Source of the DNA: an uncultured Aquimarina sp.
GTDB taxonomy: Bacteria > Bacteroidota > Bacteroidia > Flavobacteriales > Flavobacteriaceae
Assembly: GCA_938011245.1 (NCBI GenBank)
Contig: CALLUJ010000109.1
Coordinates: forward strand, 1-63,264
DNA: 63,264 nt
Reading direction: 5' to 3'
Each line of letters starts with the position of its first letter. Positions within the stretch are counted from its first letter, which is position 1. Shown here piece by piece: positions 2,190-61,474 of the stretch. The notes under the pieces are model-generated. The model worked only from the letters and a program-made list of their open reading frames with translations. It searched no databases and was not told the DNA's origin. The translations under genes were made by a program, and so were the position numbers.

Positions 2190-2429
2190 GAAAATTAAAG
2201 TATATATCTTTAGTTAATCTAAATACATTACAACGTTTAAACTATAATTAGTACGGAGATAAATAAGCGATTAGTTTCCGAATAAGCACTTAGCCAAAAC
2301 TTTTTATTTTGTTTTATTTTTTTATATTAAAGCCAAATCAAAAAGATTTTGCGGACTTAGTTAAAAGCTTTAAACTTTGGGTTAAGCACCAAAACCCGTA
2401 TTAATTATAGCCATTGTTGGCAATAGTGT

Positions 2430-3179
2430 TTATTCAGTTTCCATTTGATTTAATGAAGTAAAAAAGTACATTAAAAATCTGTCTAAATATTTTCTAATTG
2501 AAAGAATATGGTTAATAGTCAGCATAATTTCATTATCTTCATTAATTAGTGGTGATTTAATAATTGCCATTCCCTTTCTTTCATTTACTGTTTCATTTTC
2601 ATATGACTCTAATCTAGCATAATCCCTATCGGTTATTTTACCAGAAGAGTGCACTATAGCGTGTCTGATAATTCTAAGTTCATAGTAGCGAATAAAGGTT
2701 TCTCGATATTCCATTTCAAATCCATTAGGTTCTTTAAGGTTTAAGCCATCTTCATCAGTTAAATACTTTAGTAGACTATCATTTCTCCAACTACTATTAA
2801 CTTTTTTTTCAATTTCAGATTCTGACAATTCAGATTGTTCAGATTTAAGTAATATTTCGTAAAGGTCTTCTAGAATTCCATCTACTAATGAAACTGAAGT
2901 AATAATATAGTTCTCCAACACTTTTTTTAGAACATCATTTTTATATGCTTTAACTAATTTTTCGTTAGAATAAGTGACTTCTATTTCGTGGTCTAACCTT
3001 AATGTAGGCGGAATATTTTGTGTTGTACTAAGATGAGTAGAATCGGTTTTATTTTCATATCTATTTGCCGAAACGTCACAAGCATTTATTAAAAGTGCAT
3101 ATTCACTATAATTACCTACTATTTTGGCTATTCCAATTCCTATATGTTCGATTGCTTTTTCTTTTGTTATTTCTTTCAT
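2430..3179 (-). CDS. HEPN-like protein (RX4H motif)
   Basis: Alpha-helical 249-aa ORF with RIIRHAIVHSSGKI. Confidence 0.55.
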   Translation of the reverse strand: MKEITKEKAIEHIGIGIAKIVGNYSEYALLINACDVSANRYENKTDSTHLSTTQNIPPTLRLDHEIEVTYSNEKLVKAYKNDVLKKVLENYIITSVSLVDGILEDLYEILLKSEQSELSESEIEKKVNSSWRNDSLLKYLTDEDGLNLKEPNGFEMEYRETFIRYYELRIIRHAIVHSSGKITDRDYARLESYENETVNERKGMAIIKSPLINEDNEIMLTINHILSIRKYLDRFLMYFFTSLNQMETE

Positions 3180-3191
3180 AATTTATTAAAA

Positions 3192-3300
3192 TGTTGGAGA
3201 AAGGGAGGATTCGAACCTCCCTCGTATTTTGTCTTGAATCAAGTTACCTGTATAAATATGCTTCTATGCCTTATAGTCAGAAGTGGGACCTGCCCTTCCT
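3192..3300 (-). tRNA. tRNA-like sequence or tRNA 3'-half remnant (T-arm plus acceptor)
   Basis: Minus strand GGGAGGTTCGAATCCTCCCTTTCTCC forms a T-arm and acceptor 3' strand; possible 5' strand GGAGGAA at about 3300; no convincing D/anticodon arms. Confidence 0.35.
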
Positions 3301-3659
3301 CCACGAATACGACTCCTAATGCTATACTTTTAATAAAATTCATAATTTTTACTCTTTTCAGAACTTTGCTTACTTTTTCTATCTTTTTCATAATCATTGT
3401 TTTTATAGGTGTTATCAATTTTTTTGGATTTAAAGACAGCCCAACTCTGACTAAGAGCATAGTAAAGTCAATTGACTTAGTAACTTTGAGAATCAAGATT
3501 TTTATCTCTGACGAGATTATTTTCAATGAACTTTTTACATTATTGCCAACAAGTGATTAATTAGTAATATAAAGCGCTGCAAAAGCCATATTAATCTTTT
3601 CTTGAAACATCTATAGAAACAAGTTAGACTAGGATTCGAAGAAAAAAACAGTAAGATTT

Positions 3660-60558: not shown

Positions 60559-60794
60559 AAAAAAAGTTTTGGGTCTCTGCTAATATAAACGCTTACGTCG
60601 AATTTTAAAAGCTCTTTAGCCGAAAGTTGTTAAGAGGTTTTGTATTATTACGAATTTAAAAATATCGTGCTCTTTATTTTTTTATTATCAATTACAAAAT
60701 TATATCTATTATCATAATTAATAAACATCACAAAAAAACACAGACTTTTTGATTAAACAATAAACCGCCCTATTTGCTATATATAGTGTTGTGG

Positions 60795-61328
60795 TTAGTT
60801 TTTCTTTTCAAATTTTATATTATCAATCATATCGAAATTTGAAGTCAGAATAATAATCCAGGCAGCATTTTTAAATCCACGTGTTATAATTAAATCACCA
60901 TCTTTATTATTGCCTAAAATCGTTTTTCTCTCAGAATGTAAATATAATGCTGGAATAGGAGTTAAAAACAACTTTTTATTTATCGAAAAATATTTACCGG
61001 TTATTTTACCTTTAAATAATAGACTCTCTATTATAGAATCGTTTTCCATTAAACTCGCTTTCAATTTTCTTTTATTAATGACCTCAAGTTTTACAAGAGA
61101 ATTATCCAACGTATATCTATCATCTCCTTTTAATCTGTAATTATCTGCTAAAATGTTCCACAATTCATTTTTCTCAAGAACGTTAATTTTATTTTTATAA
61201 AGTCCATTTAATTTATCAATTGAAAATTTGACTGCTTGGTTTTTACTCTCTTTTACAAGACTTTTTGTTGAATAACAGCTAGTCAAAATAATCGATAAAA
61301 TGATAAAAGTATATTTAGAAATTCTCAT
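60795..61328 (-). CDS. Hypothetical lipoprotein
   Basis: MRISKYTFIILSIILTSCYS lipobox. Confidence 0.65.
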   Translation of the reverse strand: MRISKYTFIILSIILTSCYSTKSLVKESKNQAVKFSIDKLNGLYKNKINVLEKNELWNILADNYRLKGDDRYTLDNSLVKLEVINKRKLKASLMENDSIIESLLFKGKITGKYFSINKKLFLTPIPALYLHSERKTILGNNKDGDLIITRGFKNAAWIIILTSNFDMIDNIKFEKKN

Positions 61329-61474
61329 TTTTTTAATTAACCACAACGTTAAGTATATGGTTTTGTAACTATCCCGTAGGGCGGTTATAAACTATATACC
61401 TTGTTACAAAACGTTCTATTAAGGATAACAGAAAGTCGTAGTAGTTTTTTTATATTAAAGTTCATAAAATCTAT

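Follow-up and report, generated by a model that had tools for sequence, protein, structure and literature searches.

A lipoprotein gene in a contig from an uncultured Aquimarina sp. raises the question of what the repeats at its two ends are, and whether they mark it as a mobile unit. The original prediction had described two inverted copies of one repeat facing the gene from either side, and had suggested single-gene modules delimited by structured repeats. We analyzed the whole contig (C109; 63,264 nucleotides, hereafter the window) together with related genomes and plasmids, and conclude that the locus is very probably a gene cassette belonging to a capture system of Bacteroidota that resembles integrons. 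The integron-like function of this system is one that we infer from its sequences. The features of the window are the following.

60788..61347, minus strand: probable gene cassette of 560 nt, not counting a decayed site; starts at its GTT (61347) and stops where its R'' box ends (60788); ends exactly complementary over 10 nt
60795..61328, minus strand: lipoprotein gene, the cargo of this cassette, 177 aa
61338..61412, minus strand: attC-like site upstream of the gene, short at 75 nt; seen in the sequence and by covariance model R1 (40.4 bits, E=4e-7)
61412-61403, minus strand: R'' of the upstream site, GTTTTGTAAC, followed by spacer AAG
61399-61394, minus strand: L'' of the upstream site, GTATAT
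61358-61353, minus strand: L' of the upstream site, ATATAC, followed by spacer TTAAC
61347-61338, minus strand: R' of the upstream site, GTTGTGGTTA
60758..60797, minus strand: downstream attC-like site, left half; R'' TAACCACAAC (60797-60788, including stop codon TAA), then ACTATATATAGCAAATAGGGCGGTTTA
61353..61412, no strand assigned: extra palindrome GTTTTGTAAC...GTTACAAAAC, made of the upstream-site R'' and a complementary copy within the loop
2416..3550, minus strand: probable second cassette, left edge of the window; opens with GTTGGCAATA (3550-3541), R'' TATTGCCAAC (2425-2416); exact 10-nt pair
2430-3179, minus strand: cargo ORF of the left-edge cassette, 249 aa
2225..2425, minus strand: candidate attC-like site belonging to the left-edge cassette; 201 nt, of the long type; matched weakly by the covariance model (17 bits, E=0.18)

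The lipoprotein locus and the ends of the contig

The repeat sequences that had been quoted exist, at most 2 nt from where they had been placed: AACCGCCCTA at 60763-60772 (plus strand) and 61386-61377 (minus strand), GTTGTGGTTA at 60788-60797 (plus) and 61347-61338 (minus), and the palindrome arms TTTTGTAAC/GTTACAAAA between 61362 and 61411. They are not two inverted copies of one repeat; each belongs as a half-site to one of two palindromic sites that follow one another and are read in one direction. The gene does have repeats at both ends, as described, but these belong to two consecutive attC-like sites, and since every such site is an inverted repeat in its own right, the 36-nt repeats look inverted.

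Read on the minus strand, the locus runs GTTTTGTAAC-AAG-GTATAT-...AACCGCCCTA...-ATATAC-TTAAC-GTTGTGGTTAATT-(A)n-ATG...gene...AAAAACTAACCACAAC-ACTATATATAGCAAATAGGGCGGTTTA. The cassette opens with GTTGTGGTTA and closes with the exact 10-nt complement TAACCACAAC, inside which lies the stop codon, and its boundaries are identical in homologous cassettes of other genera. The score of the upstream site comes from a covariance model that was built without that site. Within the loop of this site, GTTACAAAAC is a perfect complement of the site's own R'' GTTTTGTAAC, and is perhaps the trace of an earlier cassette start or of a rearranged site. The downstream site lacks its right half, and the array ends here. 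The same left half is also present in the contig C51 array of this genome (L038), and its GCAAATAGGGCGG arm recurs in genome G287.

Complementary GTT.../...AAC pairs of at least 9 nt are common at arbitrary places, the window having 52 on each strand. Among the 43 window CDS tested, the lipoprotein gene alone has an exact 10-nt pair set close against its two ends. Unlike the bare occurrence of such a pair, the position and structure of the repeats at the lipoprotein gene are not due to chance.

The left edge of the window had been suspected of holding another module, and a second exact 10-nt pair does enclose an ORF there. The segment at 2225..2425 is probably the attC-like site of this cassette, since it stands where the R'' box predicts. 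Contig C109 thus has array material at both ends; its breaks were probably caused by the array repeats, and draft genomes tend to break at cassette arrays. The lipoprotein cassette closes an array that reads leftwards, toward a gyrB/parE-type gene, and it is probably sedentary now because of this terminal position and the decay of its truncated terminal site. A plasmid blastn search with the locus gave only AT-rich, chance-like matches.

The cassette rule and the attC-like site

Homologs of the lipoprotein, for which no Pfam family was found, occur in 13 of 400 Flavobacteriaceae genomes (this one counted), scattered over 11 of 237 genera. The four nearest (G185, G287, G415 and G143), all from other genera, have the identical cassette layout with co-varying ends: GTTGTGGTTAATT or GTTGTGCTTAATT precedes the gene, TAACCACAAC or TAAGCACAAC lies across the stop, and where one end has changed, the other carries the compensating change. 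On their 3' side stands a palindromic site and then, where the contig remains, an unrelated gene; on contig C9 of G287 the lipoprotein gene is number five in a run of seven consecutive cassettes. The distant homologs (L012-L020) showed no sites. The strict pattern AACCGCCCTA...GTTGTGGTTA was tried as a marker of the system and dropped, having matched only this locus among 94 relatives; since each cassette has an R box of its own, the pattern is too narrow.

A cassette usually consists of one ORF and one palindromic site, and cassettes follow each other head to tail in one direction. Each begins with GTT and seven cassette-specific nucleotides, and the reverse complement of these 10 nt lies just after or across the stop codon. 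This pairing of a cassette's own ends is nearly always exactly 10 nt long in the arrays of this genome (contig C51) and four others. For 40 further cassettes, mostly from named genomes, own ends matched at 6.25 of 7 variable positions versus 2.8 of 7 across the site junction, and 21 of these matches were perfect, versus an average of 0.68 after shuffling. Such own-end pairing is what integration of a circle at GTT would leave. Among 64 cassettes, the longest ORF runs in the array direction in 56, the median leader is 26 nt and the median distance from the stop to the R'' end is 15 nt. One array of G143 contains two near-identical 235-nt cassettes with no ORF of 50 aa (L034, minus-strand coordinates 706-940 and 3145-3379), with a near-identical copy on contig C7; these are duplicated gene-less cassettes.

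Perfect 10-bp inverted ends on each unit are also what one would expect of small non-autonomous transposons, with 10-bp terminal inverted repeats, a transposase acting in trans and palindromes as passive spacers. Some homologous units keep their ends and differ in the site body that follows, which fits such transposons; homologous cassettes at 76-89% identity often have different site bodies, so genes are not always moved along with their sites. However, the units all point the same way, head to tail, and are separated by folding sites of fixed geometry, no target duplications were seen, and there is no single transposase site because the end repeats differ from unit to unit. The transposon account is largely contradicted by a cassette common to two genera (G400 and G207), in which 98% identity over 972 nt extends from GTT to the next GTT and spans gene and site, the similarity being random outside the block: here the site has traveled with its gene. 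We give transposons little probability and continue with cassettes of a capture system.

The sites are mostly 137-141 or 200-206 nt long. In 17 aligned sites the stem has 6+4+4 bp parted by A×C oppositions and covaries strongly (39 double-changed cells versus 11.5 after shuffling), the AAC...GTT core is invariant, and the left and right spacers measure 3 and 6 nt. On the bottom strand the A×C mismatches of the top strand become G·T wobbles, and an almost unbroken hairpin of 16 bp forms from the core stem; predicted folding makes the bottom strand the more stable one in 19 of 20 core stems, by a mean of 2.3 kcal/mol. Strand choice at attC depends on extrahelical bases, the central spacer and terminal structure (PMC8946536). 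The geometry and strand asymmetry of attC are similar to those of the attC-like site, but the source of the asymmetry differs, A×C/G·T oppositions here and extrahelical bases in attC.

The repeats were modeled and genomes scanned for them, as had been proposed, with R1 as the site model. With it, 32 sites come out in this genome, and four others have 41-83 each. In the large surveys, where R1 was scored on few candidates per genome, 327 of 400 Flavobacteriaceae genomes had sites, and these flanked unrelated, non-homologous genes; across the phylum, 55 of 198 genomes had them. The repeats are neither unique to this locus nor tied to the lipoprotein gene; their recurrence around dozens of unrelated ORFs bears out the idea of single-gene modules delimited by structured repeats.

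Palindromic, intergenic sites with near-identical bodies after unrelated genes could suggest REP/BIME-like or other intergenic repeats, such as terminators or RNA elements, which spread by themselves and do not mobilize genes. Such repeats would leave unexplained the start/end pairing of each gene unit, the cassette-long homology blocks between genera, the uniform orientation and the recombinase at the head of the arrays. Nor do Rfam families match: none was found in the window, and a scan of five array loci returned only a tRNA and Flavo-1, both away from the cassette sites. We consider self-spreading repeats extremely improbable, and gene capture the better account of the arrays.

Cargo of the cassettes includes defence-type genes (L038 1064-2512, L039 13254-15331 and L035 10610-12034), with an AbiJ-NTD3/caspase protein and a convergent type II restriction-modification pair within one cassette. 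A PD-(D/E)xK nuclease is cargo directly adjoining the recombinase.

The recombinase and its relation to IntI and Xer

A candidate recombinase had been sought from the outset, and a tyrosine recombinase, mostly of 345-410 aa and sometimes longer, heads the arrays. The arrays lie downstream of its gene and on its strand, with one divergent exception, G185. In this genome the recombinase is on contig C51, ~49 nt before the first cassette, and so on another contig than the window. In 80 loci retrieved on the basis of the recombinase only, the 58 sites were without exception on the recombinase strand, nearly all of them downstream; Xer and IntI loci from other phyla gave no sites. The N-terminal domain of the recombinase was found in 196 of 400 family genomes versus sites in 327 of 400, and the many arrays without a detected recombinase may reflect contig breaks, arrays that have none or a divergent enzyme. 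Between the recombinase stop and the first cassette, several genomes have a recurrent sequence of the type GGATATA...TATATCCAATT, then GTT, which we regard as attI-like; some of these regions include a promoter-like TATATTTG element. In G185 (L035 12162-13019) a 285-aa recombinase without the N-terminal domain stands divergent at the array head, in the classical integron orientation. In Algibacter onchidii a Flavo-1 RNA (RF01705; L123 9841-9919) lies just 5' of the recombinase gene.

Shared with integrons (IntI/attI/attC), especially large sedentary chromosomal ones such as that of Vibrio cholerae, are head-to-tail one-ORF cassettes with short leaders, GTT boundaries, an R''-L''-loop-L'-R' folding site per cassette, a predicted asymmetry in favor of the bottom strand, array heads with a tyrosine recombinase and a putative attI-like site, and cargo of defence and unknown genes. 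Could these simply be ordinary integrons, plain new members of the known family whose true IntI was missed by IntegronFinder? The anatomy is the same, down to folding sites with AAC...GTT boxes, and the catalytic R, K, H, R, H and Y are present in an alignment with IntI1 and three other IntI. Four array-head recombinases match the IntI profile TIGR02249 over the whole protein at 182-210 bits, and in a tree the Bacteroidota recombinases branch nearer IntI than XerC/D. These scores, however, are below the 265-bit cut-off, and true IntI score 417-507. The same alignment finds the IntI-specific additional domain between the conserved boxes absent from the recombinases, which have instead their own N-terminal domain of ~100 aa, and IntI forms one clade (support 100/100) that excludes them. 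Five array-bearing genomes gave no IntI match over the cut-off at E<=1e-5, and 191 family genomes gave none at E<=1e-90, a strict limit at which the control was equally silent. The R boxes are 10-nt and cassette-specific (GTTGTGG, GTTGCCA, GTTACCC), whereas integrons have the consensus GTTRRRY/RYYYAAC, and the recombinase gene usually points into the array, on the same strand, whereas that of integrons points away. We hold it to be very improbable that these are ordinary integrons. Because the features that define IntI were looked for and not found, we do not file the system as an integron, although it appears to work like one.

The catalytic part has its best sequence and structure matches among XerA-type and Xer-like proteins (NF040815, PDB 5hxy and 4a8e), and four recombinases score 227, 222, 211 and 203 bits against NF040815, the curated cut-off of which is 220. 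XerA resolves chromosomes as a solitary enzyme and has no cassettes; the Bacteroidota enzyme, alike in its catalytic part, adds an N-terminal domain and a cassette array. The N-terminal ~80 aa, the distinctive part of the enzyme, are confidently predicted to form a small alpha/beta domain (pLDDT 86), which has no sequence match in the PDB. Its fold weakly resembles XPB (E=0.04) and the HARP domain of SMARCAL1 (E=0.26), and the XPB and SMARCAL1 HARP domains bind distorted DNA. Naming it a HARP domain was considered and set aside, there being no sequence support and weak support from the fold. Given what the XPB and HARP domains bind, it is an attractive thought that the N-terminal domain may help to recognize folded sites.

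Integrons have been called very rare in Bacteroidetes, with one complete case named, Salinibacter ruber (PMC9024848), and elsewhere they are given as "detected" in Bacteroidota (PMC8618304). In the open-access PMC literature that was searched, we found no description matching the cassette system. A gene-capture system widespread in Flavobacteria and their relatives is apparently undescribed, its novelty being provisional.

A model of cassette movement and the tet(X) genes

In our model, the recombinase would act on the bottom strand in its folded form, cutting it at the GTT, and the cassette would be excised as a circle in which R'' is again paired with its own R'. This circle would then insert at attI or between cassettes. 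The asymmetry of the stem, A×C on top and G·T on the bottom, would select the strand and hence the orientation of the gene, and the extra N-terminal domain perhaps also contributes to strand selection. If this is true, most Flavobacteriaceae carry tens of cassettes, which are expected to escape surveys based on IntI or classical attC. The system would also offer a natural comparison for how a recombinase uses folded single-stranded DNA without the IntI domain. In a broader context, it is tempting to speculate that the Bacteroidota harbor a second, pervasive, non-IntI integron-like lineage, in which an XPB/HARP-like N-terminal domain, and not the IntI additional domain, recognizes folded single-stranded sites, and to which tet(X) is native. 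We regard the chances of this wider proposal as evenly balanced.

The neighbor of tet(X3) has been named xerD, and movement has been credited to ISCR2 (PMC8635130). By protein search, a 5'-truncated recombinase of the cassette-system family, annotated "xerD" or tnpF, precedes tet(X3)/tet(X5) by ~190 bp on Acinetobacter plasmids (L179 6001-8070 on pHH1107, L178 and L186). The "xerD" beside tet(X3) is 50% identical to the array recombinase family over residues 144-375. The ISCR2-xerD-tet(X3)-res segment of these plasmids (PMC8635130) is like the Bacteroidota system in having a recombinase of the family, an attI-like palindrome between the truncated recombinase and tet(X), and a tet(X3) that starts with GTTATGTGCC. 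It is unlike intact arrays in that the recombinase is truncated and the end boxes of tet(X3) are imperfect, the 3' box matching the 5' box at only 7 of 10 positions. If our reading of the system is true, this "xerD" may be a remnant of the capturing recombinase.

In Myroides odoratimimus p63039 (NZ_CP013691.1, L185 3001-4337), tet(X2) begins with GTTATGTGCC and ends with GGCACATAAC. It is followed by a 139-nt site for which predicted folding gives -34.3 kcal/mol on the bottom strand versus -27.1 on the top. R1 does not detect this site, which was recognized by its paired boxes and hairpin; judged by these, the Myroides tet(X2) is a cassette of the Bacteroidota integron-like system, and it looks intact. 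An intact tet(X2) cassette would imply that last-resort tigecycline-resistance genes may have left the Bacteroidota as cassettes. When 301 Flavobacteriaceae genomes were searched for tet(X), a single distant homolog turned up, 38% identical. A tet(X3)-like gene of Empedobacter brevis has the identical GTTATGTGCC start and a 3' box of its own that matches at 7 of 10 positions, and another paired cassette comes after it. On Flavobacteriia plasmids (L180, L185 and L189), a different tyrosine recombinase and an IS91-family transposase form a two-gene element.
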